A stretch of DNA of 41,953 nucleotides from an uncultured Candidatus Saccharibacteria bacterium (GTDB taxonomy: Bacteria > Patescibacteriota > Saccharimonadia > Saccharimonadales > AWTP1-31): the NCBI GenBank assembly GCA_903946795.1, contig CAJAXB010000015.1, positions 1 through 41,953 on the forward strand, read 5' to 3'. Numbering within the stretch: position 1 is the stretch's first letter; each line of letters opens with the position of its first letter. Shown here piece after piece: positions 8,755-17,098 of this stretch. The notes below the pieces were generated by a model that saw nothing but the letters and a program-made list of their open reading frames with translations, was not told where the DNA came from and searched no databases. Both the position numbers and the translations under genes were made by a program.

Positions 8755-9159
8755 CTACTGTTTTTTACTACTGTATGCAGCCCGCCATCTACCATCTTTT
8801 TTAGCAGCCTCTACATGCACCATGCCACTAGGCTGCATTCTTCCTTGAGTAAAAAGTTTTTGGACTTTAGCTACATTAATTTTAGACCACACACTCTTTG
8901 GTCTTCTCGGCGTATATCTAACTAAGTAAGATTCTTCATCATATTTATTAATAAGTCCGTCAATCCAGCCAAAGCAAAGGGCTACATCTAACGCTTCATC
9001 GTAATGAATAGTTGGTATTTTTGAATCTTTCTTATAAAAACGCAGCCAAAATCCAGTCGATTGCTGATAATGATTTGATAGCCAATTCCAGAAATCTGCT
9101 TCTGTTTCAAATGAATATACCGGTAGGTCTTTGTGTGTTAATTTTATTTTAGCATTCAC
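8755..9159 (-). CDS. YdeI/OmpD-associated-like protein
   Basis: FWNWLSNHYQQSTGFWLRFYKK...DEALDVALCFGWIDGLINKYDEESYLVRYTPRRPKSVWSKIN. Confidence 0.88.
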   Translation of the reverse strand: MNAKIKLTHKDLPVYSFETEADFWNWLSNHYQQSTGFWLRFYKKDSKIPTIHYDEALDVALCFGWIDGLINKYDEESYLVRYTPRRPKSVWSKINVAKVQKLFTQGRMQPSGMVHVEAAKKDGRWRAAYSSKKQ

Positions 9160-9215: not shown

Positions 9216-9497
9216 TTATCTATTTTTAATACCATCAAGTCGTAGCACATCGCTGTCGTCACTATGTGTACTTCCGCTATTAACATGCTTGTCATTAATC
9301 TTGGGACCATTCTTAATCACATGAACTAGTGCCATTGCGTGACCCCGTCCTAAGTCAAAGTCTTTTTTGAGCCACTCGACTATTTCACTTGGCTTTGTGT
9401 CATAGCTAAAGCCTTTTACGTGTGCTAAATCGATAAGTTCCTTAGGAGTTTTACCTGTTTTTGTTTCTATATTATCTAGATATGCTTGGAATGACAT
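9216..9497 (-). CDS. DUF4287-like protein
   Basis: MSFQAYLDNIETKTGKTPKELIDLAHVKG...GRGHAMALVHVIKNG; start placed at MSFQAY, inside the listed ORF 9216..9527 and just after a terminator hairpin. Confidence 0.82.
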   Translation of the reverse strand: MSFQAYLDNIETKTGKTPKELIDLAHVKGFSYDTKPSEIVEWLKKDFDLGRGHAMALVHVIKNGPKINDKHVNSGSTHSDDSDVLRLDGIKNR

Positions 9498-9516
9498 TAT
9501 ATATATCTTATCAAAA

Positions 9517-9538
9517 AACGGAGACAAAAGTCTCTGTT
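9517..9538 (-). terminator. Hairpin just after repeat A (terminator-like)
   Basis: Minus strand AACAGAGAC-tttt-GTCTCCGTT followed by TTTT. Confidence 0.7.
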
Positions 9539-9553
9539 TAAGTGTATGCGATA

Positions 9554-9583
9554 TTGGAGGTCCTTAGTCTTGTCCATAGCAAC
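9554..9583 (-). repeat. Cassette repeat A
   Basis: Minus strand GTTGCTATGGACAAGACTAAGGACCTCCAA. Confidence 0.85.
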
Positions 9584-9625
9584 TAAAATAAACAGAGGTG
9601 GGCGATTATATATTGTAAACTTGAT

Positions 9626-10165
9626 TTAGTCACTAGCGACTAGAGTGTTTAGCATTTTTTTGGCACGACCTGCAACTGATTTTCTGTCACTTTTTGAAAA
9701 ATTTTCTAACCTAGGAATGATCCACATTCTTAGCTTTTCATCGTCTTTTGCCCAAGCTGATAATGTTTCAATCGTCGTATTTTGAACGATCCAATCGTCA
9801 CTTTTATTAAGATTATTTTTTAGTATTTCTTTTGCCTTTTCTAGCTGTGGCTCAGACATATCATCTTCTAACCACAAGAATAATTGAGCTAGTGTCCATT
9901 GCGTAGAGGCTTGGTTGATTTTTTAAATATTTATTAGGAATTTATCGATATATGATACAAGCCAGTCAGGATGCTCTTTGCATATACGCTTCATAGCATT
10001 TGATACTCGTAATCGCACCACTTCATCATCAGAGTAGTAACATTGATATAAGTCTTCTAGCTTTTTTCTGTCGGCCAGTATTAGATTTACAACTTCAACT
10101 GTGTTGCCAAGTGAATTTGGGTGCCCACCAGTGAGCATTTCTTCAAATGTGTTGATTTTAGCCAT
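9626..10165 (-). pseudogene. HEAT-repeat-like protein gene interrupted by one in-frame TAA
   Basis: ORFs 9923..10165 and 9626..9877 are in the same frame, separated by TAA plus 15 sense codons (KINQASTQWTLAQLF) that complete a continuous protein. Confidence 0.75.
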
Positions 10166-10210
10166 GAGTATATTGTATCAAAATTATTCCAACCAAGTCT
10201 AGAACTAAAT

Positions 10211-10273
10211 AACAGATACAAATTAGTGGCAATAGAACAGAAGTGTTGCTATTGGAACTAACAGGTATCTGTT
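10211..10273. repeat. 63-nt imperfect inverted repeat (cruciform/terminator-like)
   Basis: aacagatac(10211-10219)/gtatctgtt(10265-10273) perfect; ttagtggcaatag(10223-10235)/ctattggaactaa(10249-10261) 11/13 paired. Confidence 0.85.
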
Positions 10274-10282
10274 TAAATATCT

Positions 10283-10312
10283 TTGGAGGGCTATAGTAGA
10301 TGCTATCGCAAC
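10283..10312 (-). repeat. Cassette repeat B
   Basis: Minus strand GTTGCGATAGCATCTACTATAGCCCTCCAA. Confidence 0.88.
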
Positions 10313-10827
10313 TGACTTGTCTTTAAACTCTGCAGGTATTCGTCAGCTTGTTTCTGGTTACGAAAAATCAATACGTTCTTATGGTTATTCCATTTATTAA
10401 TTTGTTTGTGTGTTTTTGGTAGTTCATTCTTTCTATACGTAAGAATATATCCAACAAATTCCAGTGGCAACCTCTCTTTCCAGTTTTTGGGCATTTCAGG
10501 CCTTGAATTAAAGCGATAATTCAATCGTCTTAAAATTGCATGATATAGACAAATATAGGTCGGAAAATCTAGAAAGATTATTGTGTCCGAAGCTTCAAAT
10601 CGGGCTTTAAATGTATCGTTAAAGTCACCATCAATTATCCACTTACTTCCAGATGTAGCTACTTCGATCTTCTTGTTCCAATTATTCTTGTCTGTTTTAT
10701 AGCTACCGTTAGGATCGTGATAAATGCTGTCTAAATTTATTAAAGGAAGCTTGGTTATTCTATGTAGTTTTGCGGAAAAGACACTTTTGCCAGCACCTGG
10801 GCAACCAATTACTGAAATTCTCTGCAT
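10303..10827 (-). CDS. FlaR/adenylate-kinase-like P-loop nucleotide kinase
   Basis: ISVIGCPGAGKSVFSAKL Walker A; IDGDFNDTFKARFEASDTIIFLDFP; stop codon lies inside repeat B. Confidence 0.85.
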   Translation of the reverse strand: MQRISVIGCPGAGKSVFSAKLHRITKLPLINLDSIYHDPNGSYKTDKNNWNKKIEVATSGSKWIIDGDFNDTFKARFEASDTIIFLDFPTYICLYHAILRRLNYRFNSRPEMPKNWKERLPLEFVGYILTYRKNELPKTHKQINKWNNHKNVLIFRNQKQADEYLQSLKTSQLR

Positions 10828-10884
10828 ACATACATTATATCAATAAGCCGAGGGGTATTACATCTGTTTTAAGTATAATCGATA

Positions 10885-10914
10885 TTGGAGGTCCACAGTA
10901 GATGCTATTGCAAC
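10885..10914 (-). repeat. Cassette repeat C
   Basis: Minus strand GTTGCAATAGCATCTACTGTGGACCTCCAA. Confidence 0.88.
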
Positions 10915-10941
10915 TATTTTTAACGGGAAGAAACAAGCTAT

Positions 10942-13900
10942 TTAGTTGTGCTTGCCAAGACCCGTATTAGGCGCTCCAACTACATTAACCGCTAAACCTG
11001 CAGGGTCAGTAATCAGACCGTCTTCTAGTCCGTCAGCATCACGGGAGCTACCGTCTTTTACAGTGTAAGTTACACGTGTTGCTGGTTGATTCTCGATAGT
11101 AATTTGCTCCAAAACTGCGTCGGCTATGGTGAAGTAAGCTCCAGTTGTTGGATTGTATTTGCGAATTGTTACTTCTCCGGGAGTAACTCCAAAGTAGGTC
11201 TGTGTGACTGTTGTCGTAAAGCCAGCCTGGCCACAATCGGCGTTAAAGCCTACTAATCCATTCGGATAGTCGTAGGCCACATCATTTGGAGCACCACCAT
11301 CAAGCTCTTGCTTGAAAAGAGCTTCGAACGTACACTCAGCTGATAGCTCTAGCTTTATAGGTTTATTGGTTTGCGGACTGATGAACGCTACACTGTTTTC
11401 AGCACAACCCAAGTCCCACTGGAGACATGGAAAGCCCTCATTATAACTGTCATATCGTGACCAAATAGCATCAAAATCAAACTCAGTCATTGGCCCGTTG
11501 GTGGTTGATTTAAAGTAATTAACATTGTTTTCAATTTTTGTGCAGTTGTCGTTACCAAGCTGATACCCACCATCCTGATAGTTATAACATGGCATATCGG
11601 GATCATCGCTGTCGGTCAGATTCCAATAAACATTGTCTACAAATGGACTTGAAGCAAGTGATATCTCGCCAATTATACCTCCAGAAATCGTGCCAACTAC
11701 AGATCCACTAGCAAACGAATCTTTAACATTGATATTGTTATTGCTTAGGTTGTGATATCCGCTAATACCGCCAACATAATTATGACTAGCGTTAACAATT
11801 TCTCCAGTTGAATAGGTTCTCTCTAGTGAGGCACCTTGTGACTGACCGACAATTCCACCTGTGTAGTCACCATTGCCCGTGACATCCCCCCTAGAATAAC
11901 TGTCGGTAATAGAAACAATATTCATATAGCCAACCAATCCACCTACATAATAATTACCCTCAACACTTCCGGTGGCGTACGATTGATTAATAGATCCATC
12001 ATAAATTGCCCCAACCAGACCACCAGCATTACTATTGCTTGTAAGTACGTTTCCGGATGCGCTTGATTGACTAATTTCAGAATTATCATATAATTCGCCG
12101 GCCAAACCGCCAGCTGTACAGTTAGCTGTAACATTTCCGGTTGCCTGAGTCCCGATTATGTCTTTAGCCCTATTGGATCCAACAACACCCCCTGCATTAC
12201 AACTACTTACCGTCACATCAACATCGGCTGATGAATCTACGATAGTACTGTTTGATGGATTATCGGTGCCGACGTATTCACGCGTGTTCCAGGTGTCTAG
12301 ATATGACTTGTTTTCAGGGGTGTCAGGATACTGAGTATTTAGGTCATAGGTGCCCATCCCTTGGTACGGCAGAGGATCGACATGCGTACCAAGTGTACCC
12401 AGATTTGCATGCTTATACAGTGCTTGGTTGTTAAGTATAAAGCTGCGTTCTTTTCCTTCTGGGACGGCGTTATATGGGAATTCAACATTTAGCTGGTCGC
12501 CATAGCGCATAACTGCATATTGATCATCTTTGCTTTGTAATAGCGGCGTGACGTCACCGTATTTGGTGAACTTACCATATTGATTCTTAAACTGAGTAGC
12601 TGGATAGGGCTTTACATCGTAATAGTCGTGGTCGTTAAAATGAGATCGATCAATTGCTGTAAACCCATGGAAATCAAGATCAACCGACTCTGGCTCGTAG
12701 GTATTTGTTTCTACAGGAACTTGTGGAGAAGTATCGATGGCAAAGTAGTTGGCCTGCAAGGTGTCGAAGCCGACTTTTACTTGATAGTTGTCACTGAGGA
12801 ACTTACCGGTCAGATCAATAGTTCGAAGCCTTGGTGAGCCATCACTACCAATGTCGTTTTTGTTATAAATCTCTACCCAGTTACCGTTTTGATCTTTTAC
12901 CTGAACGGTACGCAACTTACTCTCTGGAGTCTCATCGTAATTTCGAGCACCACGCATTACAAGCTGAACATTCTCGTCCTTACTAGCCGAAAGGTCGCCG
13001 AAGTCCATGACCCAATAGTTAACTTTACTGTCGTCTTTGTAACTCCATTTGTCGTCGTAGCTTCCGAGACTGTCTTTGCAGTCATTACCGTATTTGTCTA
13101 CACAGGACTGCATAGTATTTGTCGGGGTGTCGCTGATTGTCCTTAGATCGTCTTTTGTAGTATTACGGAACAAGGGCGATACAACGCTGTAGCCTGGCTG
13201 ATGGTCGAAAGTCATCAATGATAATTGGTCGTAGTAGACAATCTCGTTATATTCCTGCGCAATCTTCATGGAATATTTGCCGTCTTTTGGCGCCAAAGCA
13301 CTTTTGTCTATCTGGGCTAAATCTTCAGCATTAGTATAGCGAGGTAACTGACCTCCGACATCATCTGTATAGATATACTTACTTCCGTTCCAGGTATAGA
13401 CAAGCGGACTAGAGTTGTCTAGGTTGCCGATCGGCACATGCTGACCAACTAGACCACCAGAGGTACGATATCCATTAACCGTTCCGCTGGCATGGACGTT
13501 TTCGAGGTGCCCTACCAAACCACCGGCCACAGCTCCGACATACCAATCTCCTGTAATATCAGCATTGGATAGGGTGAAGTTCTCTACGGTTGCGCCATCA
13601 TCAATGACTCCAAACAGCCCAATGTTGCTCTGGTTGGGACGATCTATGAAAAGACCCGAAATAGTAAAGTTTTGGCCATCGAATGTTCCGGTAAACGAGG
13701 TTGGCGAACCTTGGTTACTATAGTAGGTGCCGATTGGCTCAAATCCATAACCATCTCCCCATATACCAACATTGTTAAAACCCGGAGTACCTGGATTAGT
13801 TAGCGAACAATCGATGTCATTGCCTAGGATGTAATCTTCGTTTAGAGGATAAGCGTTGTTGATACCTATTTGAGCCAATTCATCACACGTATTTATTTCT

Positions 13901-13998
13901 ATCTCACCTACGGCATTCACATTAGGAGGAAATGCATTGAACCCAATTAAACTACTAAAAATTAAGGCAATAAAAAATGCCTTCACTCTTTTAAACAT
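10942..13998 (-). CDS. GLUG-repeat surface protein with large internal inserted domain; ends shortly after PNTG motif
   Basis: Signal-like N-terminus MFKRVKAFFIALIFSSLIGFNAFPPNVNA (start inside listed ORF 10942..14037); repeated GGLVGxxxxxSIxxSYATGxV; C-terminus DGSSRDADGLEDGLITDPAGLAVNVVGAPNTGLGKHN*. Confidence 0.85.
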   Translation of the reverse strand: MFKRVKAFFIALIFSSLIGFNAFPPNVNAVGEIEINTCDELAQIGINNAYPLNEDYILGNDIDCSLTNPGTPGFNNVGIWGDGYGFEPIGTYYSNQGSPTSFTGTFDGQNFTISGLFIDRPNQSNIGLFGVIDDGATVENFTLSNADITGDWYVGAVAGGLVGHLENVHASGTVNGYRTSGGLVGQHVPIGNLDNSSPLVYTWNGSKYIYTDDVGGQLPRYTNAEDLAQIDKSALAPKDGKYSMKIAQEYNEIVYYDQLSLMTFDHQPGYSVVSPLFRNTTKDDLRTISDTPTNTMQSCVDKYGNDCKDSLGSYDDKWSYKDDSKVNYWVMDFGDLSASKDENVQLVMRGARNYDETPESKLRTVQVKDQNGNWVEIYNKNDIGSDGSPRLRTIDLTGKFLSDNYQVKVGFDTLQANYFAIDTSPQVPVETNTYEPESVDLDFHGFTAIDRSHFNDHDYYDVKPYPATQFKNQYGKFTKYGDVTPLLQSKDDQYAVMRYGDQLNVEFPYNAVPEGKERSFILNNQALYKHANLGTLGTHVDPLPYQGMGTYDLNTQYPDTPENKSYLDTWNTREYVGTDNPSNSTIVDSSADVDVTVSSCNAGGVVGSNRAKDIIGTQATGNVTANCTAGGLAGELYDNSEISQSSASGNVLTSNSNAGGLVGAIYDGSINQSYATGSVEGNYYVGGLVGYMNIVSITDSYSRGDVTGNGDYTGGIVGQSQGASLERTYSTGEIVNASHNYVGGISGYHNLSNNNINVKDSFASGSVVGTISGGIIGEISLASSPFVDNVYWNLTDSDDPDMPCYNYQDGGYQLGNDNCTKIENNVNYFKSTTNGPMTEFDFDAIWSRYDSYNEGFPCLQWDLGCAENSVAFISPQTNKPIKLELSAECTFEALFKQELDGGAPNDVAYDYPNGLVGFNADCGQAGFTTTVTQTYFGVTPGEVTIRKYNPTTGAYFTIADAVLEQITIENQPATRVTYTVKDGSSRDADGLEDGLITDPAGLAVNVVGAPNTGLGKHN

Positions 13999-14079
13999 TA
14001 ATTTCCCCTTTGTTTTGTAACTCGCAAGCACTACCAAGCCCTTTATTCCTACCTATTAGCACTATTGTATCAATAAACA

Positions 14080-14316
14080 TTAACGCTTTCCAACAAAGCC
14101 GGTATTTGGTGTACTTACAACTTGCGATGCGAGCCCTGCTGGATCGGCAATTTGTCCTGGCTCATCGTCCATGTCTAAATCTCCTCCGTCAGTTATTTGA
14201 TACGAAGCAACTGTAACTATATGGCCGTCGATGGTTACTTCTTCTAGTGTAGCTCCGTATGTGCCGGTTAGGTTGAAATAGATATTTGTGAATGGATTGA
14301 ATTTACGGACAATTAA
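14080..14316 (-). pseudogene. C-terminal remnant of a second choice-of-anchor-U/PNTG surface protein
   Basis: Minus translation LIVRKFNPFTNIYFNLTGTYGATLEEVTIDGHIVTVASYQITDGGDLDMDDEPGQIADPAGLASQVVSTPNTGFVGKR*; no start codon, stop immediately upstream. Confidence 0.8.
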
Positions 14317-14332
14317 TTATGTACTTAGATAG

Positions 14333-14362
14333 TTGGAGGGCCATCGTGAACGCTATTGCAAC
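14333..14362 (-). repeat. Cassette repeat D
   Basis: Minus strand GTTGCAATAGCGTTCACGATGGCCCTCCAA. Confidence 0.88.
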
Positions 14363-14724
14363 TGTAATAATTGCGATGGAGCTATAAACATGCCGTGAGA
14401 ATTCTTTTTCAATGCTATTTCGTTTATAACTGCATTTGTATTTAGTGCACCATAAATATGAGGGAAAAGTCCATCACGACCACTCAGGGCTTTTTCAAAT
14501 TTTACCTCAGCAGTAACTTTATCTGTATCAACTACAAGTAGGATTAAATTATCAAAATTTCTAAAATGACGATTAGCTATGTCAATTGTTTGATTGGGAT
14601 TTGAGCAATGAATAAAACCTACTTCATCTAGTGTCGAGGTAACAGTCGATTGTACATACTTTCCTGACTGCCTAGCTTTTTTCCAGACTGAATCTTGAGC
14701 AATTACGATTATTGGTTTTTGCAT
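14353..14724 (-). CDS. DUF952-like protein
   Basis: GFIHCSNPNQTIDIANRHF...LILLVVDTDKV...FPHIYGALNTNAVI; stop codon lies inside repeat D. Confidence 0.88.
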   Translation of the reverse strand: MQKPIIVIAQDSVWKKARQSGKYVQSTVTSTLDEVGFIHCSNPNQTIDIANRHFRNFDNLILLVVDTDKVTAEVKFEKALSGRDGLFPHIYGALNTNAVINEIALKKNSHGMFIAPSQLLQLQ

Positions 14725-14740
14725 AAAGATATAATAACAA

Positions 14741-14760
14741 AAAGACGCTTTCGCGTCTTT
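14741..14760 (-). terminator. Hairpin just after repeat E
   Basis: Minus strand AAAGACGC-gaaa-GCGTCTTTTT. Confidence 0.8.
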
Positions 14761-14774
14761 GAAGCATAAGCGTT

Positions 14775-14804
14775 TTGGAGGTCCATTGTCTTGTCTATCG
14801 CAAC
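14775..14804 (-). repeat. Cassette repeat E
   Basis: Minus strand GTTGCGATAGACAAGACAATGGACCTCCAA. Confidence 0.88.
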
Positions 14805-14818
14805 CGAGATCAAGTTTG

Positions 14819-15280
14819 TTAGGAATTTGACGTTTTAATATTTTTTGAGATTAACGATAGAACTAAAGCAATTATCAATACTGGTATTAGTAGCTTAGTT
14901 GAAATAGCTCCTGGTGGTGTGTGCTCAGAAATAACTGGTTTTAGTTGGCCGACTCCATAACGCAAAAACTGTTCAAGCAATAATAGTAATATGGCTAATG
15001 GTGTCAAAAACTTATATCGAATAATGATAACCCAACATAGTATTGCCATAAGTAGTTGGCTACTACCCCATTGTCCAAATATCGCAATTATATTTGAGCC
15101 ACCAGCAACAGAGGTATTAATTCCTGCAATAGAGTGGGCTCCTCCGTCGCTAGCAAACATGTGAATAAGGCTTCGTACTGTATTAACAACAGTTAGCAGT
15201 ATTAAAAAATAATATGCAATTTCCTGGCCTTGATATTTATTATTAGTTTTTGGAACAATATTCTGTACGGTAATTTTCAT
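14819..15280 (-). CDS. Hypothetical multi-pass membrane protein (first cassette after tRNA-Lys)
   Basis: Start placed at MKITVQNIVPK; the first 30 aa of the listed ORF are a translation of the tRNA and its terminator. Confidence 0.75.
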   Translation of the reverse strand: MKITVQNIVPKTNNKYQGQEIAYYFLILLTVVNTVRSLIHMFASDGGAHSIAGINTSVAGGSNIIAIFGQWGSSQLLMAILCWVIIIRYKFLTPLAILLLLLEQFLRYGVGQLKPVISEHTPPGAISTKLLIPVLIIALVLSLISKNIKTSNS

Positions 15281-15292
15281 AATAAAATTGTA

Positions 15293-15323
15293 ACAAAAAA
15301 CAGAGACATTTAATCTCTGTTTT
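15293..15323 (-). terminator. Intrinsic terminator of tRNA-Lys
   Basis: Minus strand AACAGAGA-ttaaatg-TCTCTGTT-TTTT. Confidence 0.85.
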
Positions 15324-15337
15324 AAGCATATTCGTAT

Positions 15338-15414
15338 TGGAGGGCCAGGAGGGACTCGAACCCTCGACACCCTGCTTAAGAGGCAGGTGCTCTAACCAGC
15401 TGAGCTACTGGCCC
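15338..15414 (-). tRNA. tRNA-Lys(CUU)
   Basis: Minus strand GGGCCAGTAGCTCAGCTGGTTAGAGCACCTGCCTCTTAAGCAGGGTGTCGAGGGTTCGAGTCCCTCCTGGCCCTCCA; acceptor GGGCCAG/CTGGCCC, loop CTCTTAA, encoded CCA. Confidence 0.96.
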
Positions 15415-15466: not shown

Positions 15467-17098
15467 TCAGTCTGACTCGTCTTTTTCCAGATTTATTGGG
15501 ACCGTAAGAGTGAATGTGGATCCTTTTTTAAGTTCTGATTCTAGACCTAGTTCTCCATGAATATGTCGGGCTAGCTTTGCTGTAATAAATAGACCAAGTC
15601 CGGTACCGTTAGTAGATCTCGTAAGCGGGTCTTCCGAACGCCAGAATTTATCATACACTTTAGCTTGTTCGCTTTTTGCTATGCCGTTTCCGGTATCTTT
15701 TACTGCAACAATAATATTATTGCCTTTTTTGTTGATTGTAACCGTGATGCCGCCTTGTTGCGTATACTTTATTGCATTAGTAACAAAGTTCTGCATGATC
15801 TCTTTGAAGTAAAGTTTATTAGTAGAAATTTTATCTACTGCCGGATCAATAGCAATCTTGAGATATAACCCCTTCTTTGCCGCTTGTGCGGTATATAGTT
15901 GTTCTATTTCTTTAATGATATCGCCAACCTTAAAAGTTTGAATCTCCATCTTTGTATCGCTTCGCTCTGCTCTTGAAAGAGCCGTTAAGTCATTAACCAT
16001 ATCAGCAAGAAAGACAACTTGGTCATGCGCTTTAGTTACAGATTCTTTGATATCTTCTACTGCAAGTTTAGGCTTATCGACAAGAAGCATACCCATAGAT
16101 AGCTCACCTTCGGCAATAGTAATTGGAGTGCGGAGCTCGTGACTCACTTCAGAAATGAACATATCTTTTTCTTCGTCGAGTGATTTCTCTTTCGTGATGT
16201 CTCTTAATAAGAGCGTGTAGCCCTCTTTCTTAGAGAATAAGGATGTGCCTTTAATCGTACTAATACTGAGATCCAGAGAAATTTGATCTGTGCTTCCTAC
16301 TGGCAATACAAGATCTTTTCGTCTTTGAATGTTTGTTGTACTCTCAAGCTCTTTGAAAATATCAATCGTATTTCCTTTTGAATCTTTAAGTTTCAAAATA
16401 CTTCTTATATGTTTTCCAGTAAGTGTCATGTGTGTATCTAATAGATTTAGGGCGGCAGCATTGTATGCCAAAATATATCCTCTCCCATCTGTCGTAATCA
16501 CTGGATCATACATCGTATTAATAAGCCCAAGCAGTCGGGCTCTTTCTCGCTCTACCTGATCTACCTTAGATTCCATATCTGTACGTTTTTGTACATTTGA
16601 AAAAACGAGTTGTGTAAGGATAATACTGACGATAAGGAGTAGTATGTATTGCGGTACAATTTTATTGAATGAAGCTATGGTAAGGCCATTATCCTGGTAC
16701 TGAACACCCATGACGAGCGCAGCCCATAGTGCAATAGAGCTATACACAACTCCTTTAGCCTGATAGCTAAAGTAGGTGAGGTAGATCAGTAATACCCATA
16801 TATACAAAAAGTAAGATAGCGTTGGCACAATAAAAATAAGTACAAAACAAAGTATCCAGTGGTAGGCATAGATTGATGCAGCTTTTGAAACATGGGGCCG
16901 TACACTCGGTAAAAGATGCGCGCCGGCAAAAAGAGAAAGGAAAAGGGCAGTGCCATACACGAGATATGGGTTAGTACTAAACGTCTGGTTTGTTAGAAAA
17001 TTAAAGATAAGTAAAAGGCTAATACCAACAATAGCAGCCACGATGATTCGTGGGTTTATTTCAGGAGATGAAGCTGATCGAACATTAGACTGAGCCAT
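15467..17098 (-). CDS. Membrane sensor histidine kinase with PAS-like domain
   Basis: Multiple N-terminal TMs; MYDPVITTDGRGYILAYN; H-box FISEVSHELRTPITIAEGEL; N-box NFVTNAIKYT; DTGNGIA; GTGLGLFI. Confidence 0.95.
   Translation of the reverse strand: MAQSNVRSASSPEINPRIIVAAIVGISLLLIFNFLTNQTFSTNPYLVYGTALFLSLFAGAHLLPSVRPHVSKAASIYAYHWILCFVLIFIVPTLSYFLYIWVLLIYLTYFSYQAKGVVYSSIALWAALVMGVQYQDNGLTIASFNKIVPQYILLLIVSIILTQLVFSNVQKRTDMESKVDQVERERARLLGLINTMYDPVITTDGRGYILAYNAAALNLLDTHMTLTGKHIRSILKLKDSKGNTIDIFKELESTTNIQRRKDLVLPVGSTDQISLDLSISTIKGTSLFSKKEGYTLLLRDITKEKSLDEEKDMFISEVSHELRTPITIAEGELSMGMLLVDKPKLAVEDIKESVTKAHDQVVFLADMVNDLTALSRAERSDTKMEIQTFKVGDIIKEIEQLYTAQAAKKGLYLKIAIDPAVDKISTNKLYFKEIMQNFVTNAIKYTQQGGITVTINKKGNNIIVAVKDTGNGIAKSEQAKVYDKFWRSEDPLTRSTNGTGLGLFITAKLARHIHGELGLESELKKGSTFTLTVPINLEKDESD

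Follow-up and report, generated by a model that had tools for sequence, protein, structure and literature searches.

The 41,953-base stretch of DNA analysed here (the window; contig CAJAXB010000015.1) comes from an uncultured Candidatus Saccharibacteria bacterium, whose 766-kb genome is 94.6% complete. It contains a tRNA-Lys(CUU) gene followed by five short repeats that separate a row of gene units, here called cassettes (Table 1). A first-pass annotation had proposed that this is a tRNA-anchored gene-capture array with a cassette site of about 30 nt and site-specific recombination as its motor, which our analysis supports. By pattern search, GTTGC-N18-CCTCCAA occurs five times in the window, always on the minus strand and where first annotated, and the chance level is a mean of 0.007 per window (order-1 Markov shuffles). 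In the rest of the genome, only one additional match was found at up to 2 mismatches, on another contig and chance-like. All five repeats lie downstream of tRNA-Lys(CTT) in the orientation of the tRNA. The claim that they share its 3' terminus is exact, since the encoded CCA of the tRNA is the very end point of the repeats, with about 10 nt in common (TGGCCCTCCA). The similarity reported past the tRNA end (TACG..TATGCTTAAAACAGA) is also real, being a tRNA-3'-flank/terminator motif found behind tRNA-Lys and a minority of the repeats.

The main open reading frames (ORFs) of the array follow the tRNA orientation, and no recombinase gene or integron integrase was found among them, in agreement with the annotation. 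Using Pfam, the DUF952, GLUG and weak AAA/kinase assignments were retained, a HEAT-like protein was not confirmed, and a DUF4287 gene was added past repeat A. For cassette 1, we picked a start codon downstream of the ORF start that overlaps the tRNA. The cassette start after repeat B has relatives of 86–89% identity in other genomes, where they stand behind different neighbours. In the interval from repeat D to the GLUG gene, a segment at 14090-14330 (minus strand) appears by eye to be what is left of the C-terminal end of another PNTG-type surface protein.

Table 1. Positions of the tRNA anchor, repeats and genes in the window, and of repeated elements at other loci
Feature	Sequence	Position	Strand	Basis
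tRNA-Lys(CUU), anchor; 3' end TGGCCCTCCA is the shared, attB-like core	window	15338..15414	-	ARAGORN, Rfam RF00005
Repeat E, cassette site	window	14775..14804	-	pattern search and site model
Repeat D, cassette site	window	14333..14362	-	pattern search and site model
Repeat C, cassette site	window	10885..10914	-	pattern search and site model
Repeat B, cassette site	window	10283..10312	-	pattern search
Repeat A, cassette site	window	9554..9583	-	pattern search
Histidine kinase gene; conserved proximal flank together with the tRNA	window	15467..17098	-	comparison with G003
Cassette 1 gene, no Pfam match (membrane protein in the first-pass annotation)	window	14819..15280	-	ORF list, Pfam
Cassette 2 gene, DUF952 protein; stop codon within repeat D	window	14353..14724	-	Pfam
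Cassette 3 gene, GLUG-motif surface protein, 1018 amino acids	window	10942..13998	-	Pfam
Cassette 4 gene, P-loop kinase-like (weak AAA_18); stop codon within repeat B	window	10303..10827	-	Pfam
Cassette 5, two small ORFs (80 and 77 amino acids), no Pfam match	window	9626..10165	-	Pfam
Last unit, DUF4287 gene past repeat A; missing at the corresponding G003 position	window	9216..9497	-	Pfam, comparison with G003
Conserved gene at distal edge of variable region; 82% nt match at same position in G003	window	8755..9159	-	comparison with G003
Repeated element of ~138 nt	L049	8172-8309, 11447-11585, 12501-12643		
Repeated element of ~138 nt	L105	1628		
Repeated element of ~138 nt	L046	12337		
Repeated element of ~138 nt	L093	5886		
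Copies of the last 9 nt of tRNA-Trp (reverse-complement coordinates)	L225 (G303)	9087, 9270, 9455, 11246		

A profile search of related genomes (G and L numbers are our labels for genomes and loci) revealed that the same site recurs class-wide at tRNA-Lys. The 30-nt repeat stands as annotated, with the correction that the conserved site reaches further left, from about -5 to +29. It reads A-N3-TRGTTGCRATAG-N8-R-TGGCCCTCCA, with A at -5, T at -1 and R at 0 in the left extension, and only the last ~10 nt are tRNA-derived. The exact pattern matched 21 of 394 genomes of the class, compared with 1 for a reversed control. A sequence-only site model (38 columns, built on 70 sites) detected the family in 102 of 393 Saccharimonadales genomes, covering 69 of 148 genera. 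The site also extends to a second order of the class, with five copies behind tRNA-Lys at one locus (L263), while a phylum-wide draw of 385 genomes gave one match outside the class.

The site family is tied to tRNA-Lys. At the exact-pattern loci, which are arrays or single units barring one lone match in G191, a tRNA-Lys (CTT or TTT) lies upstream and co-oriented wherever the fetched piece contains it together with the array start. In 32 arrays a same-strand tRNA-Lys lies upstream; for another 21 arrays, the fetched piece contains no tRNA-Lys. Among further loci chosen by the site alone, all of those containing tRNA-Lys (11 of 11) have it upstream and co-oriented. A model-free count points the same way: the tRNA's own last 10-mer has 60 same-strand and 0 opposite-strand copies downstream of tRNA-Lys(CTT), at a chance level of 0.25, the loci having been selected for arrays and the strand contrast serving as control.

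Several candidates were set aside. Pattern matches in L088 (titled Bathyarchaeota) and L094 (titled Bacteroidales), whose fetched pieces contain no tRNA, were treated as chance, and the G191 match (L040) similarly has no tRNA within 19 kb. A right-hand motif, GCTTATGC/GCATAAGC, was considered as a fixed second half-site; it stands at a fixed position after only ~15–35% of sites, depending on the mismatches allowed, so we take it as a probable travelling remnant of the tRNA 3' flank or terminator. Inspection by eye also suggested dyad symmetry about the core, but this was not demonstrated and is not claimed.

In order to describe the architecture, we summarized 157 cassettes over 54 loci, with a median length of 745 bp. 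The largest array, from G225, contains 21 repeats within 17 kb, none of them reversed, and the first lies 389 nt past tRNA-Lys. More than half of the cassettes (86 of 157) carry a single ORF of at least 55 amino acids. The largest ORF has the orientation of the tRNA in 130 cassettes and the opposite one in 24, so that the single gene orientation annotated in the window is not absolute in relatives. In 108 of 132 cases, a stop codon lies in the repeat or at most 60 nt ahead of it. The 297 cassette proteins fall into 241 families, most of which (214) are singletons. The commonest Pfam families are parts of toxin-antitoxin systems (PIN, YafQ, YoeB, ParE, Phd, RelB), and NUDIX, HAD, peptidase S51 and DUFs are also common.

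Other repeated elements were seen in these loci. In some arrays a DNA element of ~138 nt, mostly ending in GGTGGRCCTCCA, recurs and might be an alternative boundary. Complete tRNA-Lys(UUU) genes are present inside arrays at L084:1640-1715 and in L036; the former appears by eye to be a hybrid with acceptor-stem mismatches, whose T-arm and acceptor 3' strand resemble tRNA-Lys(CUU). At the tRNA-Lys(TTT) position of its relatives, L043:2557-2650 (G117) has an unrelated segment of ~80–90 nt ending in ATGGCCCTCCA. Besides, in L225 the last 9 nt of tRNA-Trp (CCCCTGCCA) have 4 downstream copies in the same orientation and 0 reversed, which suggests a cassette array at tRNA-Trp in G303.

Cassettes are gained, lost and exchanged as units. 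When the window is compared with G003, a genome from its own genus, both flanks of the array (towards the tRNA and at the distal end) are alignable at 72–74% nucleotide identity, while not one array protein between these conserved flanks is shared. The turnover at repeat boundaries foreseen in the annotation is thus complete between two species of one genus. Across genomes, 23 homologous cassette pairs were found, most of which span repeat to repeat, and flank similarity is absent upstream in 20 and downstream in 18. For example, a cassette from G014 (family f3) matches one from G421 (family f7) over 721 of 721 nt at 96.7%, flush with both boundaries. One cassette type is adjacent to the tRNA in L163 and internal in L155 and L044. 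Close relatives differ in the array interior too, and entry of new cassettes exclusively beside the tRNA is not established. In a 1.6-kb stretch shared by the close relatives L043 and L084, 6 of 20 mismatches fall within a single 30-nt repeat, indicating that sites change faster than cassettes. From the above, the existence of an exchangeable cassette array anchored on tRNA-Lys is nearly certain.

These exchanges at repeat boundaries already contradict the view that the repeats are a regulatory RNA, a terminator or a chance family with no tie to gene turnover, which we regard as scarcely tenable. Terminator-like hairpins are indeed present behind 55 of 163 repeats and behind 19 of 34 tRNA-Lys genes, compared with 153 of 3000 random places. 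However, they are located outside the repeat, in the following cassette; an Rfam scan of the locus matched no family besides tRNA, and single-strand folding of the repeats gave a stability not above that of shuffles.

The annotation had expected a tyrosine recombinase supplied in trans. The window's genome contains one PF00589 protein, of the XerD-like housekeeping type and on another contig. Such a XerD-like enzyme is present in all 36 genomes checked, most of which have no second tyrosine recombinase. A dedicated tyrosine integrase was sought by PF00589 in 56 genomes and rejected as a candidate: array genomes mostly have Xer only, and second enzymes mostly lie away from arrays. The enzyme found flush on tRNA-Lys, with the repeat at the far end of its island, is instead a large serine recombinase (LSR).

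The representative case is G204, in which an LSR gene lies antisense and flush on tRNA-Lys(CTT), its ORF extending into the tRNA, and the next site downstream is a standard repeat, 11.2 kb off. Searching 393 genomes with this LSR, we found full-length homologues of at least 49% identity in G282, G118, G014, G112, G063 and G259; these six and a fragment in G435 all come from array-positive genomes, and all save that of G063 abut tRNA-Lys. With one more tRNA-Lys remnant in G348, antisense LSRs flush on tRNA-Lys were counted in 8 genomes, intact in G204, G282, G118, G014, G112 and G259 and as remnants in G435 and G348. The islands span 5–11 kb between tRNA-Lys and a standard repeat, which is the next boundary downstream of the LSR in G204, G118, G112, G259 and G435; in G259 this space is taken up by a compact set of element genes. 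NCBIfam models indicate similarity to CcrB/CcrC, far under the equivalog cut-offs. At the G204 and G112 tRNA-Lys islands the LSR is the sole PF00239 match, and no second small serine recombinase of the CcrA/DsiA type was found there. The G204 island also has an internal tyrosine recombinase, and two mutually related tyrosine recombinases, at L177:11234-12388 (minus strand; G204) and L180:8906-9841 (plus strand; G118), are located close to genes for Dcm, Vsr and HNH proteins in large islands at tRNA-Lys.

Distant relatives of this LSR abut other tRNAs, and a tRNA lies beside the gene in 28 of the best 30 loci. In Saccharimonadales genomes (loci L195-L224 and L117-L146), members of the broad family stand antisense at the 3' ends of tRNAs for Lys, Trp, Gln, Gly, Tyr, Ser, Arg, Asn, Leu, Pro, Met and Glu, and serine enzymes, instead of tyrosine ones, seem to be frequent tRNA integrases in this order. 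A second, divergent LSR lies inside an array at L039:10203-11879 (G154), flush with the repeat at 10187 and with its stop codon within the repeat.

Since LSR islands sit flush on tRNA-Lys with the standard repeat as their next boundary, the best reading is that this repeat represents the attR-type terminus of a family of tRNA-Lys-specific LSR islands and that the small cassettes are non-autonomous relatives of these islands. The system probably depends on an LSR rather than on an integron integrase. We therefore favour, as moderately likely, a class-wide integron-like cassette array of Saccharimonadia on the tRNA-Lys 3' end that is moved by a tRNA-Lys-specific LSR. In this reading, a cassette starts directly past the CCA of tRNA-Lys or past the core (TGGCCCTCCA) of the repeat before it, and ends with a bipartite site, in which a recombinase half-site of ~25 nt (A-N3-TRGTTGCRATAG-N8-R) is joined to the tRNA-like TGGCCCTCCA. 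Cassettes may circularise and then integrate at the tRNA or a repeat by recombination in the shared core, which would leave the tRNA intact. The best candidate enzyme is a tRNA-Lys-specific branch of the CcrB/DsiB-like LSR family that targets tRNA 3' ends. The LSR is missing from most array genomes, the window's own included, so cassettes lacking it would be passengers that cannot move by themselves and either depend on an LSR acting in trans or remained after its loss.

An earlier reading, that the lack of an integrase implies Xer, was dropped once the LSR islands were found. The corresponding rival scheme would have the housekeeping Xer tyrosine recombinase move the cassettes at a dif-like site, the 30 nt being readable as two 11-nt arms flanking an 8-nt variable centre (11+8+11), as in the Xer/dif modules of Acinetobacter plasmids. 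Xer is the sole site-specific recombinase of the window's genome and of G003, and as noted it was never missing among the 36 genomes checked. However, the arms form no inverted repeat, the far end of the serine-recombinase islands is the identical repeat, and three array genomes have no PF00589 match (possibly owing to assembly gaps). A generic dif pattern yielded no consistent chromosomal site and so no dif consensus for comparison. We consider it distinctly unlikely.

Several points weigh against the LSR as the motor. No serine recombinase is present in the window's genome or in G003 (98% complete), a PF00239 match is absent from 13 of 40 array genomes checked, and the tRNA-Lys LSR is confined to the 8 genomes above. 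LSR-less cassettes carry the left half-site and core only; to the right of the core they show no conservation, and the sequence there is unlike the right end of the LSR islands, so movement of these cassettes by the LSR is unproven. At other tRNAs, island ends fit the left half-site convincingly in one case only, Arg. We infer the cassette circles and recombination steps from comparisons of DNA, mostly of metagenome-assembled genomes, and none has been observed.

The conservation of one half-site only would also suit a fossil record, in which serial LSR islands at tRNA-Lys eroded to single genes, leaving repeats as attR scars and cassettes immobile. The LSR remnants in G435 and G348 agree with this, and Dehalococcoides ssrA islands likewise include integrase-less members (PMC3146451). 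Immobile cassettes, however, would not account for small cassettes that recur across families from repeat to repeat with different neighbours, such as the G014/G421 pair, or for the cassette type that is tRNA-adjacent in L163 and internal elsewhere. This history is unlikely, though less so than the Xer scheme. Alternatively, a further recombinase, outside PF00589 and PF00239 or delivered by a phage, plasmid or partner cell, might move the cassettes, with the LSR islands merely sharing the site. The 13 array genomes lacking a serine recombinase and the scarcity of second tyrosine recombinases would fit. Yet no recurrent candidate gene appears in the arrays, given the predominance of singleton families, and the strict repeat pattern has zero matches in 2.9 million viral contigs. 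This we hold to be very improbable.

Somewhat short of an even chance is given to the wider claim of a distinct Saccharimonadia gene-capture system, analogous to an integron and comprising a recombinase half-site fused to the tRNA-Lys end, single-gene cassettes, a recombinase (serine or unrecognised) acting in trans from rare helper islands, and parallels at other tRNAs such as tRNA-Trp in G303. How episymbionts with genomes under ~1 Mb keep gaining genes is an open question, and a class-wide cassette site at tRNA-Lys allows the gain and loss of genes in Saccharimonadia to be read out directly. The arrays are also a catalogue of accessory genes, with many toxin-antitoxin pairs and unknown families, and the site is a natural landing site for genetic tools. 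If the LSR-based explanation is true, there is a second route to integron-like single-gene cassette arrays, based on an LSR in place of IntI, and the cassette-array lifestyle is separable from the integron enzyme. In the literature searched, which did not cover subscription journals, no prior description linking an integron or LSR with Saccharibacteria or Patescibacteria was found.

The array works like an integron without being one, and integron membership is not supported. Like integrons and superintegrons, it has co-oriented one-gene cassettes with frequent toxin-antitoxin modules, one anchor, an array-wide site family and cassettes exchanged as units. Unlike them, it has no IntI, no attI, and no attC core (GTTRRRY) or hairpin; the site reads GTTGCRATAG, the anchor is a tRNA, and cassettes often begin with a terminator. 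The pdif modules of Acinetobacter (PMC6449649) are similar in that small gene modules lie between short sites and a housekeeping enzyme serves in place of a dedicated recombinase, but their 28-bp sites, made of inverted XerC and XerD arms about a 6-bp centre, are on plasmids and without a tRNA anchor. Tycheposons and the additive flexible genomic islands of Methylophilaceae (PMC10872708) share a variable region of units delimited by tRNA-end repeats. Tycheposons use tyrosine recombinases, whereas none lies at the window's tRNA-Lys and none past Xer occurs in most array genomes. The Methylophilaceae islands, with 20-bp repeats of tRNA-Lys(ctt), belong to another phylum and have plain tRNA fragments, and neither a half-site nor single-gene cassettes are described for them (PMC10872708).

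The nearest described system is that of the Dehalococcoides ssrA islands, followed by the SCC/ECC elements. In the former, DsiB is a CcrB-like LSR of ~540 amino acids whose ORF extends into ssrA, and about half of the islands have no integrase (McMurdie 2011; PMC3146451). Both there and here, tandem islands stand behind one RNA gene, delimited by repeats of the RNA 3' end, and a reverse-strand CcrB-like LSR beside attL has an ORF that extends into the RNA gene. The SCC/ECC elements (CcrAB LSRs at the rlmH 3' end; PMC6222049) are comparable in their related recombinases (by NCBIfam), fixed 3'-end target, attL/attR repeats and known composite elements; their target is a protein gene, though, and they are tens of kb long and form no single-gene cassette arrays. 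Of the traits of SCC elements and ssrA islands, an antisense LSR that abuts the 3' end of the target gene and whose ORF extends into that gene is found in relatives and not in the window's genome, and a far-boundary direct repeat of the target 3' end, tandem elements and recombinase-less members all occur. The Dehalococcoides target is tmRNA instead of tRNA-Lys, and its integration module adds a second small serine recombinase, none of which was seen here. Their 20-bp repeat simply duplicates the 3' end of ssrA and their islands are kb-sized and multigene, whereas here ~10 nt of tRNA join a conserved non-tRNA half-site of ~25 nt, and the cassettes are one-gene units of ~0.7 kb. In summary, the Saccharimonadia arrays are distinguished by the fused half-site, the miniaturisation to one gene, the array length and the absence of a resident recombinase.

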